Of a DNA stretch of 64,000 nucleotides, positions 7,079 to 32,303 are shown piece after piece (within the stretch, counting starts at the first letter, position 1; each line of letters starts with the position of its first letter). The notes under the pieces were generated by a model. It was not told where the DNA came from, made no database searches, and saw nothing but the letters and a program-made list of their open reading frames with translations. The DNA is taken from positions 248,001 to 312,000 of the forward strand of contig WIUZ02000001.1 in the NCBI GenBank assembly GCA_015956445.1. The letters are read 5' to 3'. The translations under genes and the position numbers were made by a program. The DNA comes from Thelephora terrestris (Eukaryota; Basidiomycota; Agaricomycetes; Thelephorales; Thelephoraceae).

Positions 7079-10000
7079 ATGGATCCTCCCAAATCCGACC
7101 CCCCTCGGCTCACTTGTATGTGTGCAAGGTGTACGCAATATTTACCTGAAGGAAAGGTCGTCCCGCAAAGGACGTGGTATCGGCATAACCCTGGTGGAAA
7201 GAAATCCAAATACGCCCCCCTCACGGCCGAACAGACCCTAGCATTTGATAGGATAGCCGCAATCCAGGACTCTCTCCCTCGTCCTAGAAGCAATGCACGG
7301 AAGCGACGTCGTCTGGAAGTCGAAGAAGTCGAAGTTACCCCGCATCCAGCTAAGCGAGCCGCGGGGTCGGGATCAGTAAGCGTGATCACACTGGATACAC
7401 TGGGGGCAAGGGGTCACTTATCCAGCAGATACACTGTGATTACATTGTGATTTTTTAGACAATGTGTCCAGCCTGTGGCCAGGAGGTACATGCTGAGTGC
7501 TTTTACAAAGTACCTATCAATGTGACCACAATGTGGCCAGTGGGTCCATCTTGATCACTTTTACAAAGTGCCCATCAATTCGATCACAATGTGCCCTGTG
7601 GGTCCATGCAGGATACATTGTAAAAGTATCCATAAAAGTGGCCACTGGGCACTTTGTGAAAGAAACCCCTGAGTTCTTTCACAATTTTGTTCACAAAGTG
7701 TCCAGCATACACCTGAGCCACTCATTGAGAGTTCTTTCAGAAAATATCCAGCAATGTGTCCACAAAGTATTCAACCAGATACTCAATGGTTTCTTTGGGA
7801 GTTTGTTGTGAAATCCAACCACATTGAGAGTTCATTGTGAAAACATTAAGAAGAACCCCCTGGGGACATTGTGGTTGCATTGCTGGGTACTTCTTGAAAG
7901 AACTCTCAATGAGTGGCTCAGGCACTCAGTAGGATACATTGTGAACAAAATTGTGAAAGAACCCAGGGGTTTCTTTCACAAAGTGCCCAGTGGCCACTTT
8001 TATGGATACTTTTACAATGTATCCTGCATGGACCCACAGGGCACATTGTGATCGAATTGATGGGCACTTTGTAAAAGTGATCAAGATGGACCCACTGGCC
8101 ACATTGTGGTCGCATTGATGGGTACTTTGTAAAAGCACTCAGCATGTACCTCCTGGCCACAGGCTGGACGCATTGTCTAAAAAATCACAATGTAATCACA
8201 ATGTATCTGCTGGGTAAGTGGCCCCCTGCCCCCAGTGATATATGCGCCTCAAAAATACGATACTCACAGTACAATACATATAGAGTGCTCAGAACCATAC
8301 GGAAGTTACTCCTGGGCGTGAAACGTCCCCAGAAACGGGCCCAGTTTCTCTTCTACCTGAGCCCGAGCCCGAGAGTCTCCCTCCTCCTCCGATCTCAAGC
8401 CGCCCTATCGAAGATACTGGCCAAGATCCTCCTCCACCCTCCCCTCCACTCGAAGAATCCCATGACAGAGTCCTGGATCCTCCTCCTTCTGGCTTGGATA
8501 CAGGTCTCAATCCCCCACAGGATGGGGAATCCGGCGAACCTCCTCCCAGTGATGATGAAGATGACTCTCACATCACGCTGGATAGCATGAAAGAGAACTT
8601 TGCGTTCCTCCAGATGGTACGGGAAGCCACTCTAGAGGCTCAGTTCACTCCGGCTGAGCTCCAGTCCCTCCGGAATCCTGAAGACTCTAAGTTCGCCCCT
8701 TCTGACGACAAAGATCTTCTATTATCTATCAAGTTCTTTATGTCGACCCTGGACCACCTCACATCGCAAAAGGCTTACACCGAGGCCCGTGAAGACATAC
8801 TAGATCGTTATCCCGATTCAGGGATGCTCTCTTACGACCGGGTTAAGCGACTAGTATCTAATCTATCCGGGGTCCTTACTTGGAAACACGACATGTGTGT
8901 CGACTCTTGCGCCGCATTCACGGGTCCATTCGCTCCTCTGGAAAACTGTCCTCGATGTGGTAAGCCGCGTTACGACCAAGAAAAACTCGAGGCGTCCGGC
9001 GGAAAAGATAAGGTACCCCTCAAATCCTGCACGACGATACCCCTCGGCCCACAGCTCCAGGCTTGCTGGAAAAATCCGGAGACCGCCGAAAAAATGTCCT
9101 ATCGGCGAAAAAAAACTCAGGATCTATTGGAGAAGCTTGGCCGTGGTGAGGTATTCGACTATGACGACATATTCTGCGGCGAGGATTATCTCAAGGCCGC
9201 GCAGGAAGGTACCATCGACGAGCACGATATGGTGGTCACACTTTCTCTGGACGGCGCGCAATTATTTCGCAATAAAAAATCCGACTGCTGGATCTACATC
9301 TGGGTCATCCTCGACCTCGCTCCCGACCAACGTTACAAGATACGGCACATTCTTCCGGGCGGTGTCATCCCCGGCCCGAAGAATCCCAAGCACCTCGACT
9401 CCTTCCTCTTCCCGGGTCTGGCACACGTCTCTGCCCTTCAGAAGGAAGGGTTGCGCATCTGGGACGGCCTCAATAATCTCACTTTTGACTCATTTATCTA
9501 TGTTCTTCTTGTTCTCATGGACGCCGTTGCTGCTGCTGATGTGAGCGGCGCTGTTGGCCACCACGGAAAAAAGGGCTGCCGGGTGTTTTGTGGGCTCGCC
9601 GGACGAAACAAACCTGGCGGTCCTCATTATTACCCTGCCTTACTACGTCCCCTGGATGGCGATAACCCGGCCTCAGATCACGCAGATATCGATATCAACA
9701 AATTACCCGACGCGAACCCATCAAATTACAGAAGAGATCTCCGGAAAGTGATGGCTTCCTCGACAGAAGCCGACTACAAATCTAACCGACTTGAAACCGG
9801 GATCAGGAAGAAAAGTATCTTTGGCGGCCTCCCTCGGATTCTACCTCTGCCGACTTGCTTCCCTGGGGATCTTATGCACCAGCCAGTAATAAATCTGACT
9901 GGCCTAATGCTCGAGTTGTGGTGCGAGAAGGGGAACTGTAGGAAAGGCGACGATTCTTCTGAAGTCTGGGACTGGGCGGTTCTGAAGGGGGACGTCTGGA

Positions 10001-11191
10001 AGGCTCACGGCAAGGTCGTCGCATCGTCCTCCACCTATTTCCCTCGTTCTTTTGACCGAACTCCTCGGAATCCCGCCAAAAAACTCTCGAGCGGATACAA
10101 GGCCTGGGAACTACTCTTGTATTTCTACGGCCTAGGGCCGGGACTGTTCTACAAGATACTCCCGGAACGGTACTACAAGCACTACTGTAAACTAGTGGTC
10201 GGCATCCGGATAATGTACCAGCGTGAGTTTACGGCGGAACAGCTCAAACTCGCCCACCAACTCCTTCTCGAGTGGGTGATCGAGTTCGAGCTTCTCTATT
10301 ACCGACGGAAGACAGAACGTCTCCACTTCGTCCGACAGTGCGTCCACTCGCTTGTCCACCTCGCTCCCGAGGCCCTTCGCCTCGGACCACCTTCGCTTTC
10401 GGCTCAATGGACTATGGAACGGATGATTGGGATATTCGGCTCCCTGATCAAACAGCCATCAAATCCCTTCGCCAATCTTGCGGAACAGGTCAAAAAGGTC
10501 GCGGAAGTCAACGCCCTGGTTTCTATGTGGCCGTCTCTCGAGCGGGTGAAGAAGGATCCGAGGGGTTCCCTTGATCTTGGCTCGGGATATATTCTACTTG
10601 GGCCCAAAGACACTCGGCCCCATCCTCTTTCTGCGGCGGAAAAAAATGCAATTGATGTTTTTTTCCCTAATCTAAGCACTCCCGCCAGAAGTACTGTCTA
10701 CCGATGGGCAAGGCTGCAAATACCTAACGGACAAGTCGCTCGTTCTTTTTGGAAGGAGGCTATCCGTACCACGAACGGCGCTCGGACTGATCGCAACGTT
10801 AAGGTACGCGATTTGATTCTTACGTCTAACTCTAATTTTACGGCTAAAATTGATCTAGATCTCATATCAAGGAGCCCTTCGCCTCGCGGAAGTCCAGTTC
10901 TACTTTCAAGTCGCTTCCGAGGGAGTCAACGAAACCCTCGCCCTCTGCTCGCTATACTCTTTAATCGAGGAAAACATTAGAATTTATTCAAATAACGCCC
11001 TTAATGTATGTACTTATAACGGACGGTCCGAGCTAGTCGTAGTTCGCGTAAATACTTTTCTTTCAGTTGTAGCTATGATACCATTCGGTGAGCAGGGTGA
11101 AGGGACTCAAGATTTTTTTTTGGTAGAAAAATTTGCATTAGGCGTAGTAGACACGGGTACGTCAGATACTTTGGATGATATAGACGCGTGA
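7079..11191 (+). CDS. Tnp2-family transposase
   Basis: Exons 7079-7375, 8284-10803 and 10859-11191 join in phase 0 to give 1049 residues. Exon 1 carries a zinc-binding-looking CMCARC and a KKSKY basic patch. Exon 2 has a second zinc motif (CPRCGKPRYD) and the core SLDGAQLFRNKKSDCWIYIW, the part of the Tnp2 domain I recognise from Agaricomycete transposases, then HILPGGVIPGPKNPKHLDSF and SAQWTMERMIGIFGSLIKQP. Exon 3 restores the family C-terminus (LAEVQFYFQV, then VVAMIPF and FFLVEKFALGV). Reading straight through from exon 2 instead gives an unrelated tail ending at 10980, so the 55-bp intron 10804-10858 (GTACGC...TCTAG) is well supported. Intron 1 is 908 bp because an 840-bp foldback element sits in it. 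Without that element it would be about 65 bp, the normal size here. Confidence 0.88.
7398..8237. mobile_element. 840-bp foldback MITE with long inverted arms, CACTG ends
   Basis: The element begins CACTGGGGGCA and ends TGCCCCCAGTG. The left and right arms are near-identical reverse complements over roughly 370 bp each, leaving only a short, less-paired centre. ATA at 7395-7397 and 8238-8240 is a likely 3-bp target duplication, fitting the CACTA/CMC class. The arms are full of recurring ACAATGTG/CACAATGT and GGCCAGTGGGTCC motifs, as expected for subterminal transposase-binding repeats. It encodes no transposase. It lies wholly inside intron 1 of the Tnp2 gene. Its ends differ from those of the host transposon, so it belongs to another family. 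Confidence 0.9.
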
Positions 11192-18059: not shown

Positions 18060-18470
18060 TATTTGTACCGTCATTGTAGGTGCAAGTCTGTCTCGAGTCT
18101 CACTCGGGATTTTACCACACCCGACGTGTCAAGTATAACCAGTCTAGGGACGATGTCACCTATGTCGAGATCCTTGGCGACCAAAGGCTAAGTCATCTCT
18201 TCCAATAAAAGCCATCAAATCGACTTGAAGCATTCTAGATTGGGACATGTGTATCTCATATGTGGGATGAAGCTTGCAAGGAGCTTAGTTCCAGTCCTCC
18301 AGTTCCATGAGATCATTCGACTGTCCAACATAAAGTGAGCCGCAAGCGTGTAGTCGCCGATGGAAATCATCCACCCTGGATCCAGCCTGTGCCGAATCCA
18401 CCTATATGAAGCGAGCGGGCGGGGTTCACCAGTTGCCATGCACATAGGATGGAATCGGTTCGACCCGCGG
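18060..18470 (-). pseudogene. F-box C-terminal fragment
   Basis: The minus strand shows the middle of the F-box family protein: an HPLAS-like PLASYRWIRHRLDP, SIGDYTLAAHF and SWNWRTGTKLL, then a trace of the following exon. The F-box and the last exon are missing. It was copied together with the CxxC gene: the same fragment follows copy 3 at 31480-31720. Confidence 0.7.
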
Positions 18471-20323
18471 TTAAAACATTATCAGATCCCGAGGATCCTA
18501 AAATCTAAAAACATAAGGGAAGTACCACTTTCCCACGGTGGACAACCCTTATCTCTGATTGGCCGGACAAATGTTATCCCTGATTGGCTGAGCAATGTTC
18601 CCTCGGCACTTTTCCCTCCGTCTGTCGCCATCTAACTGGTGTACAGCCGCACCATTCTTCAACTATCTGCTTCTGGTAGTGCTGTATAAATGGACTTCAG
18701 GATTTCGTATCACGGGTTGCGGCTAGTCAGATATAAAGATTGTCCAGATCAGAACCGTATGAAACCCGACTTCCCTTTTCTTTTGGATTGTCGTTCGCAG
18801 ATCAGTTGGCTGTCAGGAACATGGTATTTTTAAACTTTTTATAACACGCTCTTTCTTCGAACTCTTCTTACCAATTTTTATGTTTGAATGCTTCACACTC
18901 CTTATCCTTCACTCCATCATTCAAAAACACACACGCGCGTACTATTCCCAGCGAATCCACAACAAGCTATACGGTGCTATCCAAGTCCCATCAATAATCG
19001 ACTCTATCTACGGCAGGCCTAAAGGTCATCAACTGTCCATCCCGGAGATCGTAGTGTTGACCCCTCCTCGCAAGGACCTCCCCGAACATGGCGTCACCAT
19101 CTTCGGCACTCAGCTGAACGACTAGTTCAAGCCGATAGGAAGAGATGCCTTCGAGCGGACCGATCAGCCTCCCAGATGTCACTGAACTGCGGAACACCTG
19201 GTCCCACATCTCCATCACCGGGTGACTGCTCGGCAATGCTGTCGACGTAGTCGGCAAGTGACCCTCCGTCTCCCTCATCGGACCCCTGGGCGGAATCCTG
19301 TACTGCGAGTCGAGTGAGGTGCCTACGCTGGACCTCGGAAGCGACATGTCGGTATGGACGATTGACGCGGTATCGGAATGGTCGTCCGTCATCTCGACCA
19401 GACTGGTCACCATCCGACTCAACTGGTCGAGGGTACGGGTTAGCCGACGCGGTCATGCGATGGGCGGGACGGCGTCGAGAGCGTTTGCAACGTTGCCCCT
19501 TAGTCACCGGACGTACCTCGGCGACCCTCGGAGCATCTTCAGCTCGGTCAACCTCCATGACCACATCCTCGATCTTCACCAACTGATGGATTGGCTGCAA
19601 GGCACAACGCCCACAGTTCTCCTTGTCAGAAGCGGTCAAAGTCGAAGCCGGAGCCGGAGTCGGAACGGGAACCGCGTTCTCAATCGGAGGTGTCGTGTAG
19701 GACGACGGGTTAGGCGATGGGAGTACCACCTCATCGGCGTACTCCAGCTCGAACGGAACGTCGGCAGTCCCCTGACCAACCAACTTGGGACCCTCCTTAC
19801 AGTTGCAGGTCTTGTCCTGCAAGGACTCGACCTGCGCTGTTAACACAGCCACCACGTTCTCGAGTTCTTCGGTCTAGAGGAAGTCTTTCAGTTATTGCAC
19901 AAACTGCAAAGGCTGAAAGCCGACCTTTTCATCCCTCCTGGCCAATGCTCCCTTAATGTTGTTGTCCCGAACCTTCAACCCAGCGATCAACTCCTGATGG
20001 TTCGCAACCATCGCCTCCAACGCCTCGTTCGTCTTCTGCTGGAACTTGTCAGCGTGCTGAATTTTATTCTTTTTTTGAACCATTTTCACACCCAACTTTC
20101 GCCCACTTTCCTTACCCATACCCCTTTCTCATCTTATCTGTTTCCTTATCACGACTCACACGTCATCAAGAAACGAAGACAAAGCATAGATGATATTACA
20201 ACGGGCGAACCCGCAACGAAGACACAAGACGAATGGCCAACGGAGTTGAATCCGCACCGACCCTATGGACGTAGACTAACGCGCGCCAACTCTAGTCGTC
20301 AAGACCTGGTTTGCCAGTACTCC

Positions 20324-22050
20324 TCAGCACTGGCAATCTCCTCCTCCGTCCCCTCCGAGGCACTCTCGACGACTTCCTCGTCGACCATCTCGACGACCCG
20401 AGCTTCCTCCAGACGATGAGCGACGGCCAGCTGAACCTCGGCGCGAAGGCGGTTCCTCGCTGAATCGACCATAGTCTGATCCAGAGTCCTCTGGACTGAC
20501 CAGCCCTCCACTCTCTCGGTCAGTTGAGCCACCAGGCGAACGGCCTCCGCTGCACGCTGGACCGACAAGAGCGTAAGGTCGGTTAAGCCGTTCACGTCGA
20601 CGGACTCCACCGGAATCAGCTCGCCGCGATCCACGCGACACTGTAGCATCGTCGCATCGGAATAGGACGGTGGACTCAATGTCTCCACCCTGGCGGACAG
20701 CGTCTGGATTACTGGCACGCATGCGGTGGGCTGGACGAAGCGCCCCACGATAAGGAACCCAACGACGAGCACGGATAGAACGCTGCCCACGCACCGGCGA
20801 GACCGACGGCGGCGGAACCGGAACGGCCACCTCGTTCTCCCCCGCATACTCCAACTCCGGAGAACTGCTGATCGGGTTAACCGCCGTCTCCTCGGACGTC
20901 TCGCGGACGACCTCCTCCCCGCCATCAGTATGCGCAGGTGTGCGGTACGACCCATCGGAAGCTAAAAAGGGATGTCAGTGGGCAAGCCAAATATGTCAAC
21001 CGACATCCCACCTATGGGAGAAGCCATCCGATCAGGAATCGACTCGTCTCCGGACTCGTCGCGAACCGCAGCCACCGAACGAGTGCGGCAGTGGCACAAC
21101 CGCTCGCTCATGGACTCGACCCGAGCACCCAGCAACGGCAAGGCGTCGTCCAATGTGTCAACCTAGAAGTGGCGTGAGCTCTCTTGGATGAAGACCAGGA
21201 GAAGTCGCACCAACCTTGGTGTCGAGCTCATTCAGAGCCCTTCTGTGACGATTCAGCCGTCGGTCGACCTCGATCAGGTCCCGCTGGATGGTGTCATCTC
21301 GTTCCCTCAAGGACTCGACCAATCGGTTGTGTTCTTCGCGCATCGCCAGCATCTCGCTCTCAAATGTCACGCGGAGCGTATCGTTCATCAGGAGGAGCGT
21401 TTTCTTCATGTCCAACGCCTCCGAGTACATCCTACGGGCGTCGTCCTTCGCTTCCTTCACCTCACGTTTCAGCCGCTCATTCTATAAGTCCATCAGTGTT
21501 ATCCCATAAGCGGGATGCACAGATCGACTCACCGCTTTCTGTTCCGTCCTCAGAAGGAACCAAAGGCGGTGACCGACGGCTGCTGTATAATGTTGGGAGC
21601 GAGTCGCTCCAGGCCATCTTCCTTCTCCATTCCCCAGATCGTAGATCCCCATTCGCAGGAGCCCCCACAACGACGAAGCCACCGGAGTCTCATACGGCAT
21701 GCGTAGCTCGGTGTTGAACGTTACCCCTCGCATCGACTCTTGCAGCTTGTGGTCAATCAAGTTGTGATACCACAACTCGTCGTCCATGGTCAGGTAGCTG
21801 GGAGGCTTGACGATCGTTGCCTCCAATTGACGAGCGTCCACCTTGTCGGCCACCGCGAAGATCTGCAAATGCGATGTCAGTTGTTGCCAGCAAACGGCGA
21901 CACGTGACGTCGCACCTCGCGATAGCTGGGGTACGCCACATTGGCGTTCGGCAGGAAGTAACTCTTGTTCTGCACGGACCGAGGATCCGCGGATTCGATG
22001 GTAGCAGTACTGTTCTCAGCACGGAAGACACGGTCAGAGATCATGGGCAT
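20324..22050 (-). CDS. unknown intron-rich protein carried by the nested unit
   Basis: Exons 22050-21916, 21862-21533, 21481-21215, 21162-21012 and 20961-20324, with introns of 50-53 bp and all phases agreeing, give 506 residues. The N-terminal 155 residues form a conserved block shared with the outer copy (YLTMDDELWYHNLIDHKLQE, then LWGLLRMGIYD). Next comes a strongly helical stretch rich in Glu/Arg/Leu (about residues 156-245, MREEHNRLVESLRERDDTIQ), a CHC motif, an acidic segment, and a long Arg/Ser/Gly-rich tail with repeated SGG and RRG. There are no membrane segments. It could be a gag-like or DNA-binding accessory protein, but I do not recognise it. Confidence 0.65.
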
Positions 22051-22968
22051 GATGAGTAGTTGGTTGGTGGAAGTGTGGGCTTGGAAGAAGGGAGTTTGAT
22101 GGATCCAACGGCCGGTTCGCGCTACGCTTTATCCGACCATCGACAGCGCTCGCGTCCTATTCGCCATTGGATCGGACCATCGTTTCACCGGTCCAGACTC
22201 CTCATACATTCGTCCTCGACATTCGAGCCCCACTCGGTCTTTTGTTGTCCCGATCGAACGAGCTGACGCGTCATCCTCTTATTGGTCAGTCTTCACATGT
22301 GATATTATCCTTTGTCATTCCTTTCCCACACGACGTCATGACCCCTTTCTTATTCTCTCACGAACCCTGACCCATTAGTCATTCCTTTATCATTTCTATT
22401 CTATCACCCGGGCCGCTTACTGTTCCAGCTTACTCTCGGCCCTTCTTTGCTCCGAGTTATTATTAGATAGGATTATCTATGTCCCGGCCACTCTCCTATA
22501 TAGGTACCAGTAGAGTAGCTGAGGACTCCCTATCTTTGATATCTCGGGAAGTCCTCTTCTCCTTGCAGCATCGGTGTATTTGCTGTAGGCCACTGAAGAG
22601 CTTATCGAGTAACTCTCTGAACACGTTCGCTCTCCTCTCTCTCTCAGCCTTGCATTAAGAATCGACGAACGCGCTTACGAAAAGGAGTTCCTCGTCGCTC
22701 TCTTAATCAAGCACCAGTTTGAGGCGCCATCCTCGGGCTCTTGTATCCGCCCTCAGAAGACGATAGGGGTTTACCTGATAGAGGCTCGGCACTCCTGCTG
22801 TGAATTCGGACAACCTACCGGAGAACGCTCGTCCATCGCGTTTTGGACCACGTAGACTTTGGGTGGATATAGGGAAGTCGTTCCCCCTTTGCCCCATTGT
22901 TTCTTGTTGGTTGGAGTTGCGACTCACCAACAGCACTGGTACCTGAAGGGCGAAGAGTGGCCCTGACA
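22051..22968. other. leader of the nested unit, no gene
   Basis: Pyrimidine-rich, with TATATA near 22496 and GGACAACCTACCGGA shared with the outer unit's leader (24866). Probably promoter and 5' region. Confidence 0.45.
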
Positions 22969-23606
22969 GAACTCGGCCATGGTCTCCTTCATCAAGAGAC
23001 CCTCCGCTGACAGACGAAGCACGTCGGCCTTCGCCTCCTTCACCTCACGCTCCAATCGTTCAGCCTAGGCAGTTTGATTAGTCGAGAGTCATACTCGAAT
23101 ATTCAAACAGAGAACCTACCCTGCTTTCTCCCTCTCGAACGAGCGACCACAACAATGAGGTAGCAGCGGTGGCGTGGCGGATGGCCCGAGGAACAGTCGC
23201 TCCGTGCTCCAACAGGTCCTGATCGTAAATCCCCCTCTGAAGGGTGTACCAGAGCTCCTTCTTGATCGGATGCTCCAGTTCTCCGAACCTACCCCTCATC
23301 TGAAAAGCCACCTTCTCCGCGATCATCGTACGGACCCAGAGCTCATCATCCCAGGTCAATCCCATCAAATGTGGGATCGTCTCCCTGAAACGTTCGGCGT
23401 CCACCTGCCTGACGACCTCCAAGATCTATTGGAAAAGAGTTAGATGTGCACCAAAGCATCGAACTCTCCCCCACCTGTTCATCGGTGGTGTAGGGAACCC
23501 CCGCCTCATTGGCGTAGGTCTTGCGGTTGGCGGCACGACGGTCGACACGGGAGATGGTAGAGATGCCGTTGGCAACCTTGTAGGTGTGGTTGTTTGGGAA
23601 AGACAT

Positions 23607-24981
23607 GTTGGTAAGATGATGGGGAAGTTGTTGGTGTTGCTGATCAAGGATGGCTCCAAGAAGACGTCCTTCTTATAGCCTAGATCGGTGATCCTTCACG
23701 TGACCTACCTCGACGAACCTCATTGGTCCGGGTCACATCAACTTCCGCCTTTGTACCATCATCGTTGGCTTACTACATCAAGCTGACACCTCGGCCCACG
23801 GGACGGCCTTGGAAGAACTTCGTTCCGGAACGCCTAGAACGCGCGCGCACTAAAAATAGGTCTCAAGACCCTGATGACCCCTTTATGACATCACGAACCC
23901 CTTTTACGACCCCTCATGACTTTACGATTACGATCAACCCTGGACCCTGATCACACACGTGGACAGTCACATCACAGTCTCCTAACCGGAGGAAGGAATC
24001 GCCGTTATTCGGAAGGAGTGCCTTAGACTCCTTTTGGTTAACTAAGCGAATGTGGAAGTAGCCGTTAGCGTGAAACACCGGCGAATCTGTAATCCCTCAT
24101 GTCCCATGAGTCTAGGCCTGCGCTCCTCATGTTCGGACCTATGTTGAGGTTGCCACTAGTCCGTGATGCTGTTACCGCCTACAGACAACAAGGGATGCTG
24201 CATGGTCTCTATCTTTGGCCTCTCCAAAGGAAGCATCCAAGAAGATTTTCACCTGACCCTTGGGTGTGATCCCCAGGTACGAACTTTAATGACCCCTATG
24301 CCCCTATTTCTTTTAGGACTAGTGTTATCTTTACCCCTATGTTTCATGCGGACATTCGTTATCTTTTATGCAATCCTTCACACGCTAGTAAGGCCCTTTA
24401 TCCTTTATTCTCCCACGCGTCATTCTTTGTTCGCTTCCCTTACTTAGCGTTCCCACACTCCTTATCTCTGTTTCACCTTACTATTTATGGGTAGATTACT
24501 TCTCACGCTGTCAGGCCACTCGTAGTAGTATAAATACTCGGTCTGGTAGTAGAGTAGTTCTTTAGTTTTGTTACCTCAGGAAATCCTCTGCCCTTCTCAG
24601 CCCAGTTGCAGTTAAGGACAAGTCAGAGTTTCTTGTTTGATCCAAGACATCCCCATCTGCTCTCCCTCCCGCTCTGCGCGTCAACTGCGCCTCGTAACTA
24701 TAGACTCCCAGCAGTCATATTAGAACACCTCGAGCGTCCAGTCGATCAACTGGTGGAGTCATCAATCCTGCTGTAGGGATCAACCCTTGCTTGTTAAACC
24801 GAACGAAGTACGGTTTAGGTTGGGTTTCTCTTTAGGATTTCGACCTGACTTGTAGTGACCTCGGACAACCTACCGGAAGAATAGAGACGTGATCGTTCTC
24901 TCACAAGCTAGTTGGACTAGTGAGTACTCTGCGGAGTCGGCTCAGTGCACTGGTAGTTGTTGGGGTAGAGTGGCCCTGACA
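23607..24981. other. leader of the outer unit, no gene
   Basis: About 1.4 kb with short frames only. It holds TATAAATA at about 24531 and a TGTCAGGCCACTC at about 24509, complementary to the unit's terminus. Confidence 0.4.
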
Positions 24982-25187
24982 TTGGCGCGGCCAATTTTTC
25001 GCTGTTTTTCGATCACCCTTCTTTTTTTTCGATCACCCTTCTTTTTTTTCGATCGCTCTTCTTTTTTTTTCGAGGAGTTATACATCGAACAAGGTTGAAG
25101 AAAAAAAAGAAGAGCGATCGAAGAAAAAAAGAAGAGTGATCGAAGAATAGCGAAAAATTGGCCGCGCCAACTGATCTGCGAACGACA

Positions 25188-27046: not shown

Positions 27047-30030
27047 GATTCGCGGTTCGGAGATGGGGCAGCACCGCAGGGAGTATCGGACATCCTGGTT
27101 TGAGCCAAAGGGAGGGACTTTCATCTCGATCCTGAGTTAGCTTTCTGTGTCGATTAACATCCGACGCGGTGCACGGTGTCCGTAAGGTCATGTCTATGTG
27201 TTGTGCTCAATTCGTGGATACAGAAAATCAGGGCACTTATCGACTACCCTGGGCGTAGAGGCGTTGAGTAGTGACCTGAACGATGCGGTACACTATTATT
27301 TTCTTTCACCGGCGCGTGTCATGCAGGATAGCGCGTTCGTGGAAGTTCTGGGGGTCGCATCACCAAAAATTAAGAACGCCTAGGGTTCCCTGTCCTCGGT
27401 CATCGAACTAGCAAATGTGACTCCATCCGTCAACCAACGTCGGACCTGGGAACAATTGTAGAGGAACCCACAGTGAAGTAGACCAAACAGTCATGAAACA
27501 TTGCCGCATCCCTAGGCTTCGACGTGCTCTGTGGCAGGTCAAAGACACCTTCTATGAGGCGGAACCCCACCTTTTTATCCAGGCCCCCGCGTCCGTCCAG
27601 CCCCATGTCCGATTGCTGACGACTCCAACGACTCAAGTCATACAACCTGAACTTTGCCCACTTCTCTGTCTTGTGGAGTTCAAACCTCACAAACCTACTC
27701 CCCAAAACAGAATACCGTGTTGACACACCAGCCCTAGGGTCCCCATGCATATCCGCCGCGATGGTGTACTCTTCCCACGCATCCCACGCAATTATGCCTT
27801 CCCCGGTTTTTCTCGCGAGCCCGATGAAGGCTTCGGAGTGGACGAGAAAAAGCCCCAACGCTATCCAGTCCTGACCAATCGGTTCAAATACCAAACCGAA
27901 AATCCGTCGGGAAGGGTCTGGGTAGAACGGAAAATCCTCGCCGATAGCTTGGGAGTAATCGCTGTGCCCTGCCCCCTCTGCCACCGGCCTTACTTGTGTG
28001 TTTTGGTAACGGGGGTCATACATGAATGTCACCCCGCGTACTGCAGCGGGAGTTTCTTCCATACCCGACATGTCAAACAGAACCAGTCTACGGGTGTCGT
28101 CCTCCATGAACAAGCTGTCAGCGACTAATAGACAATCCGCCCCGATAAAGGCCATCCAACCGTGGTGAAGGTCATTACGGTCCTAATTCGGGATATCTGC
28201 GTTTCATATGAGAGGTGGTTTAGACGACATGAAACTTACGAGGACCTTAGTTCCAGTTCTCCAGTTCCATGCAACCAGTCGACCTTGGATACGAGCCGCG
28301 AGCGTGTGGTCGCTGACGGAGACCATCAGAAAAGCAGATGCATCTAGACCGTGGTCGATCCATTCATGTGAAGCGAGCGGATGTGGCTCCCCATTCGCTA
28401 TGCTCCTCAGATGCAATCGACCCGACCTACAATCAGACCGTATCAGACACATCGGGATACCTCAGCTATCTAGGGATAGTGTGTGGAGCAACTCGAGTAA
28501 CACTCACAGATTATCCGCGATGACAATTAAGTCAAACGGAAAATGGATCAAGAAGTATCCACCTTGAAAATCAAAATTCAACGGAAAAGACCACGTCTTC
28601 GTCGGCCGACTCCCTGAGGCTGAAGGAGGTCGACAGAAATGAAGCGTGTTCCTTGATGTATCATACGTGACAAAGACGTCCCCAGACCTTTGAGGCGTGT
28701 AGTATAACCTAGTCAATCCAAGTGATAGACTCTGTTTTCCTACAGGTTTCATCTCAAGGCATGAACGCAGGCTCCTTCGTCGATCGAAGATTGTCCCAGG
28801 AGCATTTGGGTTGTCCAAAAATCCGGCGGCAGCGAGCTCACACTCATATTGTAGACGTGGATCGCTGGAGATCACATCACGGAAAGTACGATTCACCTTC
28901 ATAGGGGATCTGGTTAGAATATTCATGAGGAGTGGAACCGCCACCCAACAAACCAGTTTGAGCCTCAAAATATCTAGGACTGTGAGGTGTCCAAATATCT
29001 TTCCCAGCAACTCGGGAGGCATGTTATTCCACATCGTGTCGTGGGGATGATCTCGAGAAGTGCGCGCTGTCCTAGGACACTGTGTGATACTAGCCAGGCC
29101 CGAAGAGCCCTGGGTCCAAGATAAAGAACGGGTCGCCTGGGAACAGAGGGTGGGTATGGGTAAGAGACGGAGAATCGGACGGTTCCTGACTACTTGTATT
29201 GCGGTTTGAAGTTATCAGACGGCGGAACATTCAATGTGATGGTGCGGCGGGAAAGATATAGTAAGCGCCCTTCCTGGGCCCCGAGTCGGCTCTGTTGTCC
29301 GATTATAACGCTACATCCCTCAGCGGCGATCGTCAGTATTAGTAGGTGGTCTGCTTGAGGAGACTAGTTGTCCGAGATCTCCTGATCTCTGATCAGGGTC
29401 ACGGTCCGAACGCTGAACTTGCTTGACAAGTTAAACTTTGGGGGCGCGCGCAAACGAGAACCTGCGCTCCCGGCTCGCGTCTTCATTGAGGTCTAGAGTA
29501 GGCCAGGACCACCGACTGACGAGATAATCTGATTGCCATGCGGTAGGGATGGGAGATGGTTAGCCTCAAATTAGTGCTCGGCGTCCAACTACCTTCGCAC
29601 CTCCCACGGGCTTTTCTGACAGGCTGAAGTCATTGACGGCGCAGATCCGGAGAGACAGGAAGGAGGAGGGGTACTGTGCTCGAGACTTTGGGACGGATTT
29701 CTGGAACTCCTTTCCTCATCGGTGACTCACGCGGGTGAGTGCAAAAGGTTGGCAATATTGCGGCACATCTGGTTGACCATGCCACTTTCAGAGTGCGGAA
29801 GATTCGTACGCGACTTCGGGGTGGTGATTTAACTGATCCTCTTCACATGTGAACCTAGGTGTGGATGATAGTGAAATGGGCTGCAGCCGTGGCCGCCTGA
29901 CGCCGCACTACTCTTAGGGTGCACTCCTTTTCTGCGCATACAAGCAGGGCCATACACCCCGCCCAGTTCGTGGCACAACCACCCCTTCAAAATCGGGTCT
30001 CTTCTCACGCGGCGACAGGCGACTCTCACG
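27047..30030. repeat. segmental duplication, copy 2 (partner 2348-5270)
   Basis: It carries the intact member of the F-box pair. Beyond about 30030 the homology switches to the block at 16640-18510. Confidence 0.85.
27430..29034 (-). CDS. F-box protein, intact copy
   Basis: Exons 29034-28508, 28426-28240 and 28182-27430 (phases 2, 0) give 488 residues. The N-terminal F-box (MPPELLGKIFGHLTVLDILR) predicts an SCF ubiquitin-ligase substrate adaptor. The rest has short repeated strands ending in hydrophobic pairs (LVAWNWRTGTKVLV, RRLVLFDMSG, GSRFVRFELHKTEKW), suggestive of a beta-propeller-like recognition domain as in many basidiomycete F-box proteins, though no WD signature is clear. Relative to the other copies the last residues are shifted by a 2-bp indel, and the protein ends earlier (TIVPRSDVG). 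This is the only copy in the window with an open frame through all three exons. Confidence 0.75.
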
Positions 30031-31479: not shown

Positions 31480-32303
31480 GCAGATTTATGGCCTATTTGT
31501 ACCGTCATCGTAGGCACAAGTCTGTCTCGAGTCTCACTTGGGATTCTACCACACCCGACGTGTCAAGTATAACCAGTCTAGGGGCGCTGGCACCCACGTC
31601 AAAATCTTTGGCGACCAATCATCCACCCTGGATCCAGACCGTGCCGAATCCACCTATATGAAGCGAGCGGGCGGGGTTCACCAGTCGGCGCCATGCACAT
31701 AGGATTCGATCTGCTTGACCTACGGTTAGAACATTTCTAACCCCGAGGATCCTAAGATACTGTGCAGAGGAGCTCGGGTTACGCTTGCTCTCTGTCTTCG
31801 ATGGCGATCGAGTCCAACAGAAGATGAATCGCCAAGTGTCCAGGCATGAACGTTCGTGGAAAACATCGTGTCTTCATTGGTCGACTCCCCGATACGGTCT
31901 ACGGAAATGGAACATGTTGTTGTTGTGGTGTGCATGACGTACACGTCCCCAGAGCTGCCGTGTGTCCAGAAGTGTCCGGTCAACTCAAGTGGCAGACTCG
32001 ATTTTTCTGCAGGCCTCAGATCATCAAACCTCGATTGGAAGATGCGCAGGCTCCCCCGTCCGTCAAGGAGCGCCTCGAGAGCGTTTGAATTGTCCAGCAA
32101 TCCAGCAGCAGCGAGTTCATGCACATGTGGCTGGCTTAATATGATAGCACGATCGACCCTCGTGTAAGAGGACTCATAGGCGGGGTAATATTTGCCACCG
32201 AACCAGCCAACTTGAGCCCTGGAATATCCGGGGTTTTGAGATATCCAAAAATATTGCCCATTAATTCGGGTGGCATATCGTTCAGTTGCAATGCCCTTGA
32301 CAT
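31480..32303 (-). pseudogene. F-box gene fragments
   Basis: Two pieces of the family lie in tandem. At 31720-31480 is a decayed middle/C-terminal fragment equal to the one at 18060-18470. At 32303-31726 is a 5' fragment starting MSRALQLNDMPPELMGNIFG, then, after a deletion and stop, HELAAAGLLDNSNALEALLD, matching the exon-1 middle of the intact gene. The second piece pairs with 26430-26981, so the whole 26.4-32.3 kb tract looks like a tandem duplication around the intact module. Confidence 0.7.

Follow-up and report, generated by a model that had tools for sequence, protein, structure and literature searches.

Nested units of Thelephora terrestris read as solo chromovirus LTRs with a conserved antisense gene

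The window analysed here, a stretch of 64,000 nucleotides from contig WIUZ02000001.1 of Thelephora terrestris, contains two units of about 3 kb, one nested in the other, and each carries an intron-bearing gene. Both units start with TGTCAG and end with CTGACA. The outer boundary reads exactly TTGGC/TGTCAGGAAC...GGCCCTGACA/TTGGC, the inner one GAACT/TGTCAGCGTG...GGCCCTGACA/GAACT, and the inner unit sits in exon 3 of the outer gene. An initial annotation of this DNA had already called the ends, the TTGGC and GAACT duplications and the insertion into an exon, and all three calls proved exact. Without its insert the outer unit measures 3244 bp (18811–20046 plus 22974–24981) and the inner unit 2922 bp; at the DNA level, a single 41-bp stretch is similar between them (blastn, E up to 1e-3). 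We conclude that both are very probably solo long terminal repeats (LTRs) of complete chromoviruses with a conserved antisense gene, a reading that as a whole explains the data best. Each window unit is exactly one LTR, with its ends intact and its duplication retained:

18811–24981, forward strand (gag-pol sense): outer unit, very probably a family-A solo LTR that the inner unit interrupts; exact ends and target-site duplication, and the complete C12 element has such ends at both LTRs
18806–18810, no strand: left copy of the outer target-site duplication TTGGC, by sequence match
24982–24986, no strand: right copy of the outer target-site duplication TTGGC, by sequence match
20047–22968, forward strand: inner unit, very probably a family-B solo LTR lying within exon 3 of the outer gene; exact ends and target-site duplication, and the complete C23 element has such ends at both LTRs
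20042–20046, no strand: left copy of the inner target-site duplication GAACT, by sequence match
22969–22973, no strand: right copy of the inner target-site duplication GAACT, by sequence match

The genome searched comprised 40.6 Mb in 60 contigs, and a search for the integrase core (rve) returned 144 matches. At three places, inner-family units in the same orientation flank an open reading frame (ORF) with an rve domain, at spacings of 8758, 8763 and 8799 bp. At two places, outer-family right ends stand 9318 bp apart on either side of a 1322-aa ORF, and same-strand unit pairs with other spacings were also listed. One element of each family was read, in pieces. The C23 element (inner family) is flanked by the duplication GACAT and has inner-type LTR ends on both sides, a gag of 577 aa, a pol of 1301 aa and a purine-rich tract preceding the 3' LTR; the C12 element (outer family) has the duplication GTGCA, a gag of 681 aa and a pol of 1322 aa. 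The 3' LTR starts 14 and 23 bp past the last pol sense codon in the two elements. In both pols Pfam recognised RVP, RVT_1, RNase H, H2C2, rve, SH3_Tf2-1 and Chromo, arranged as protease, reverse transcriptase, RNase H and integrase with a C-terminal chromodomain; the rve match in the 1301-aa pol falls under the Pfam curated cut-off, and its place in the domain order fits. Both gags contain a CCHC motif (Pfam). With two direct LTRs bearing TG...CA ends, a 5-bp duplication, a CCHC gag and this domain order, the parent elements are two related families of Ty3/gypsy chromoviruses. Comparison of the LTR pairs, again in pieces, found 0 differences in 741 bp for C12 and 0 in 110 bp for C23, and both insertions therefore look recent.

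Because complete elements carry such unit ends at both sides of gag-pol, we read the window units as solo LTRs. The initial annotation had proposed a new class of mobile unit, and had suggested a search for a larger autonomous relative with the same ends. Such relatives exist in the C23 and C12 elements; they are LTR retrotransposons with the unit as both LTRs, the outcome that the annotation itself had named as refuting its proposal, and the proposed class falls away. Its second alternative, derivation from LTR elements, agrees with the unit ends found at both LTRs of complete elements. The statement that the units hold no polymerase and no terminal direct repeats is correct for the window copies and wrong for the family, whose complete elements carry pol and both LTRs.

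The gene lies wholly inside the LTR, in its U3 region, opposite to gag-pol, and has three to four predicted introns of ~50 bp. The inner gene has five exons and encodes 506 aa; an uninterrupted outer copy elsewhere in the genome (L012) has four exons and encodes 465 aa. The description of one five-exon gene per unit therefore holds for the inner unit only, since the outer family has four predicted exons and intron 4 occurs only in the inner. That an intron-bearing gene lies between integrase-type ends is real, and it is explained by the gene being antisense inside an LTR. The exons, with the basis on which each was placed, are:

21916–22050, reverse strand: inner gene, exon 1; third-codon-position excess in 8 family-B rows
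21533–21862, reverse strand: inner gene, exon 2, with the TMDDELWYHNL block; gene reading and codon positions
21215–21481, reverse strand: inner gene, exon 3, coiled-coil-like by eye; gene reading and codon positions
21012–21162, reverse strand: inner gene, exon 4; gene reading and codon positions
20324–20961, reverse strand: inner gene, exon 5 with the stop codon; gene reading
23475–23606, reverse strand: outer gene, exon 1; gene reading
23120–23425, reverse strand: outer gene, exon 2; gene reading
22974–23064, reverse strand: outer gene, exon 3, part before the inner insertion; gene reading
19925–20046, reverse strand: outer gene, exon 3, part after the inner insertion; gene reading
19127–19873, reverse strand: outer gene, exon 4 with the stop codon; gene reading
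23668–23678, reverse strand: TATA-like sequence CTATAAGAAGG upstream of the outer gene; motif reading only

The two predicted proteins share 30.5% identity over 446 aligned positions (E 3e-34), and introns 1–3 stand at equal positions and in equal phase in both families. Judged by eye, the protein would be helical at its N terminus, followed by a coiled-coil-like part and a charged tail. We rejected the gene as a gag-like gene or a transposase: its exon-level reads have no Pfam match above threshold, and gag was found elsewhere in the element.

Divergence among copies indicates that the antisense gene is under purifying selection and conserved in two diverged families. For the outer family we compared 15 copies, counting the identical L021 and L022 as two and leaving out the interrupted L015 and L027 and the window copy. 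The Nei-Gojobori ratio of nonsynonymous to synonymous divergence (dN/dS) over 105 pairs was 0.137 for all exons, and 0.088, 0.084, 0.050 and 0.228 for exons 1 to 4. Mean pairwise divergence at codon positions 1/2/3 was, for exons 1 to 4 in turn, 0.033/0.034/0.199, 0.047/0.031/0.209, 0.055/0.021/0.221 and 0.063/0.049/0.143. Counted by threes outside the exons, the same copies gave 0.036/0.030/0.035 for the terminal 473 bp, 0.073/0.081/0.095 for the promoter region, 0.085/0.035/0.038 after the stop codon, and 0.100/0.130/0.102, 0.071/0.093/0.021 and 0.203/0.183/0.283 in introns 1–3. The exons have a third-position excess, and nothing comparable occurs in R/U5 or the promoter. The inner family (8 rows) gave 0.006/0.015/0.138 in exon 1, 0.023/0.018/0.138 in exon 2 and 0.017/0.013/0.015 in R/U5, with equal exon lengths in seven rows.

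Splicing signals are kept as well. GT..AG borders were present at introns 1, 2 and 3 in 14, 15 and 14 of the 15 outer copies, and retention of any one of these introns would break the frame in all 15. As aligned, all four exons are in frame without an internal stop in 14/15 copies, and exons and splice sites together are kept in 13/15; a deletion in L010 spans the exon 1 end and the donor of intron 1, and L009 shows an exon 3 frameshift in one alignment and a shifted exon 3 donor in another. A search with inner exon 2 found no stop in 134 of the best 150 of 565 candidates. The conserved antisense ORF is present in most sampled copies of both families. Singletons in exons 1–3 are biased to third positions (22/10/56), which would mean that the copies are young or still constrained, without telling which.

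The LTRs also contain the signals of a sense promoter and of a primer:

22497–22502, forward strand: TATA box of the inner LTR sense promoter, inside CTCCTATATAGG (22493 onwards); motif reading
22531–22542, forward strand: TATCTTTGATAT, the inner self-priming sequence, with which R is assumed to begin; complementary over 12 nt to the site that follows the 5' LTR of the C23 element
24529–24535, forward strand: TATA box of the outer LTR sense promoter, inside GTAGTATAAATACTCGG (24525 onwards); motif reading
24563–24574, forward strand: TAGTTTTGTTAC, the outer self-priming sequence, with which R is assumed to begin; complementary over 12 nt to the site that follows the 5' LTR of the C12 element

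TATCTTTGATAT and TAGTTTTGTTAC each begin 34 nt downstream of the start of the TATA box. The complement to the primer site is 12 nt long in each family; the sequences match within a family and differ between families, and when swapped between families the longest match drops to 6 nt. Composition shuffles attained a 12-nt match 1 and 0 times per 1000. Tf1 is known for self-primed reverse transcription, and the elements described here are probably self-primed in a Tf1-like manner. Sense RNA would start about 30 nt after the TATA box, a start at the 12-nt sequence that we infer from the position of the TATA box, and its first nucleotides would anneal to the site immediately downstream of the 5' LTR, acting as the primer for reverse transcription. 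The 12-nt complement would also locate the U3/R border, giving the inner LTR a U3 of ~2.5 kb and an R-U5 of ~0.44 kb. The right-hand ~470–490 bp of each unit is R-U5 plus the end of U3. We had considered this part (TGTC...GACA) as a short separate LTR and rejected it: similarity continues into the rest of the unit at 16/16 loci, two of them the window's own.

Transcription from U3 would be bidirectional, with the antisense mRNA spliced; the inner gene would be read from a divergent promoter between ~22060 and ~22500 and end inside the LTR. Its introns would survive and pose no paradox, because the genomic RNA that undergoes reverse transcription comes from the opposite strand, and the splice signals of the gene go unread there.

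Copies of the units are numerous. To sample the outer family, 20 other genome places were fetched; three (L013, L025 and L026) were not counted for duplications because their right end lies outside the fetched stretch. The left 18-mer and the last 14 bases are identical in all 17 copies with both ends. A perfect 5-bp duplication flanks 14 of the 17, more than chance would give; the initial annotation had counted a lack of such duplications at other copies as refuting its proposal. Two of the sampled copies, L021 (C45:1976079-1979375) and L022 (C45:1967592-1970888), are whole LTRs with 100% identity, in opposite orientation and ~5 kb apart, with different duplications (GCTTG and GGGTC); such identity would reflect very recent insertions or conversion. 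The right-end 14-mer common to both families occurs 581 times in the genome (reversed control 0), and the left-end 14-mers 406 times for the outer and 146 times for the inner family (reversed controls 0 each). Junctions between an LTR and the internal region number 11 genome-wide (8 of outer type and 3 of inner type, with up to 2 mismatches) against 552 exact left ends. Counting two left ends per complete element, there are ~48 further left ends for each. These end and junction counts rest on exact or near-exact patterns and are lower bounds, and the status of left ends as whole solo LTRs was checked in the fetched sample. Since left ends far outnumber LTR-internal junctions, many copies of the gene persist without an element. 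Unit ends also cluster, for example at C3:145-484 kb, C3:944-1088 kb and C1:528-575 kb among the first 100 places listed, and these clusters might be centromeric or other heterochromatic regions.

In the mechanism we propose, integrase would join the TG...CA ends to the target with a 5-bp stagger, and LTR-LTR recombination in complete elements would then yield solo LTRs. Direct repeats of 3 kb should recombine readily, each event leaving the whole gene cassette in place; the gene is kept on collapse to a solo LTR because all of it lies within the LTR. The excess of left ends could also be explained if the ~3-kb unit were a non-autonomous mobile unit moved in trans by the chromovirus integrase, the apparent solos being primary insertions. 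The perfect duplications in 14/17 sampled copies and the different duplications of the identical L021 and L022 would suit this explanation. The unit ends, however, are the LTR ends of complete elements; a lone LTR without a second R or an internal primer site would give no integrable DNA copy by the routes known to us; and LTR-LTR recombination retains duplications and accounts for the data without a new step. Movement in trans, which the initial annotation had suggested for a non-autonomous cargo unit, is improbable. TGT...ACA ends, 5-bp duplications and introns in the gene are also compatible with a deletion derivative of a cut-and-paste DNA transposon with an integrase-like transposase, as in the Ginger type. 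Such transposons are defined by long terminal inverted repeats, their own transposase and the lack of a reverse transcriptase. Here the inverted repeat at the unit ends is only 6–7 bp and the ends are strongly asymmetric, and the partner proved to be an LTR retrotransposon, complete with both LTRs and a reverse transcriptase; we therefore excluded this origin, to which we assign next to no probability. Terminal-repeat retrotransposons in miniature (TRIM) and large retrotransposon derivatives (LARD) have two LTRs around a non-coding core; the window units are single LTRs with no core, and this assignment was rejected too.

As for the gene, conservation of its frame could be a by-product of sense-strand constraint or of overlapping regulatory DNA, with no protein made. 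The protein has no Pfam relative, and transcript and protein are predicted only, but both families have the third-position excess in their predicted exons, the splice sites are conserved, and the proteins of the two families are 30% identical with coinciding intron positions, all of which makes this explanation very hard to credit. The gene might instead serve the host, having been captured from it as a gene family that solo LTRs then spread and maintained. It has many copies, and 13/15 sampled outer-family copies keep exons and splice sites; however, no single-copy host relative was seen, in a search saturated by element copies (best 150 of 565 candidates), and one would expect the same conservation if selection had acted in active elements and the copies had inserted recently. 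We regard a host function as unlikely. Conservation of the frame in two element families makes it most likely that the protein serves the element, and we lean slightly towards its acting in trans as an accessory or regulatory factor. A more speculative possibility, which we would hold only tentatively, is that a trans-acting gene has been placed where LTR-LTR recombination, the commonest fate of the element, cannot remove it. The many solos would then amount to a store of regulator genes scattered over the genome and acting back on the few complete elements, either controlling copy number or giving an immunity signal that strengthens with the number of past insertions.

Several observations weigh against the interpretation of the units as solo LTRs with a conserved, functional antisense gene. 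A perfect duplication is missing in 3/17 sampled outer-family copies, the excess of left ends over junctions is large, and among the first 100 places listed just one (9318 bp) of seven same-strand right-end pairs 8–10.5 kb apart matches an LTR-internal junction. We infer the LTR-LTR recombination event itself rather than observe it. The transcription, splicing and protein of the gene are predictions from the DNA. Exon 3 (0.113/0.108/0.258) and exon 4 (0.156/0.152/0.292) of the inner family show a less marked third-position excess, and one of the eight rows (L034) has out-of-frame exon lengths. The synonymous divergence (dS) of the gene, ~0.3, is about ten times that of R/U5 (~0.03) in the same outer copies (L009–L028); gene and ends may have been shuffled by recombination between lineages, or R/U5 may be constrained. 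As to function, Pfam searches with six exon-level reads (E up to 1) gave no match except two sub-threshold hits in the exon-3 read, the protein has a single marginal PDB sequence match (E 0.034), and structure models of exon 2 from both families are all-helical with low confidence (mean predicted local distance difference test score, pLDDT, 54.8).

Genes are known from the LTRs of retroviruses. The sag gene of mouse mammary tumour virus (MMTV) is coded in U3 in the sense direction, and HBZ of human T-cell leukaemia virus type 1 (HTLV-1) is made from an antisense spliced transcript that starts in the LTR, with its coding region mostly outside the LTR. The gene described here resembles sag in its U3 coding and HBZ in its predicted antisense spliced transcript from an LTR; to our knowledge, neither of those two is a multi-exon gene lying antisense within U3. 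The accessible text of PMC7264820 mentions an antisense promoter in the 3' LTR of HTLV. In the accessible parts of the sources, antisense additional ORFs are described as kept in most copies of maize Grande (gene23), rice RIRE2 and Silene Retand, and the Grande ORF as having its own promoter (PMC7264820, PMC11963269). Boty-like elements of Botrytis cinerea carry the antisense gene brtn (PMC7264820, PMC8365987), which PMC7264820 lists among antisense ORFs between pol and the 3' LTR. Boty is, like the present elements, a fungal LTR retrotransposon with an additional antisense gene, and a conserved antisense ORF in most copies is common to the Grande/Retand/Boty type and to the copies sampled here. 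In that type, however, the ORF (brtn included, so far as its description is accessible) lies between pol and the 3' LTR, whereas the present gene lies wholly inside the LTR and has predicted introns. The terms 'intron', 'inside the LTR' and 'within the LTR' are absent from PMC7264820.

Rice Retrosat2 shares long LTRs (>3.2 kb), similar TGTCA...TGACA ends and an extra ORF, ORF0 (PMC3485330, accessible text). It differs in that ORF0 is placed there upstream of gag-pol and the LTRs are described with regulatory signals only; the same text mentions self-primed yeast elements, and the terms 'antisense' and 'intron' are absent from it. Chromoviruses of the Tf1/Tcn1 type resemble our elements in the chromodomain integrase, the Tf2-1-like SH3 domain and the self-priming layout. 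The lycophyte SM-Tcn1 has an LTR of 440 bp, against ~3 kb with a gene here, and for SM-Tcn1 itself the accessible text of PMC2864245 reports that no evidence of self-priming was found. A literature search, with subscription papers mostly outside reach, found no description of an intron-bearing antisense gene wholly inside an LTR. Antisense accessory genes between pol and the 3' LTR are already known from plants and fungal Boty; within the literature accessible to us, the location wholly inside the LTR appears to be new.

LTRs are usually regarded as regulatory DNA. Here the LTR would also be a gene with introns, read against the element and selected in two diverged families, and the antisense placement explains how a retrotransposon can retain introns. 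Formation of solo LTRs, the usual route of removal, leaves the gene standing. Annotation pipelines may label such units as multi-copy host genes of unknown function or as unknown repeats. The families offer a natural system for asking what antisense retrotransposon genes do, a question left open in PMC7264820, as far as its accessible text goes.

The surroundings of the nested units contain other repeats. The outer LTR is inserted into an arm of an inverted-repeat element (window 24982–25187 with 18789–18810), whose arms TGTCGTTCGCAGATCAGTTGGC.../...GCCAACTGATCTGCGAACGACA enclose A/T-rich tandem repeats of 20–22 bp and which looks like a foldback element or a miniature inverted-repeat transposable element (MITE). 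To the left of the outer unit lies a dispersed repeat: 31617–31758 is 86% similar to 18365–18504, and 28293–28427 is 68% similar to 18337–18465. Further left, an open frame of 898 aa on the forward strand (window 8284–10977) matches Transposase_21 (tnp2) with an E value of 5e-10.

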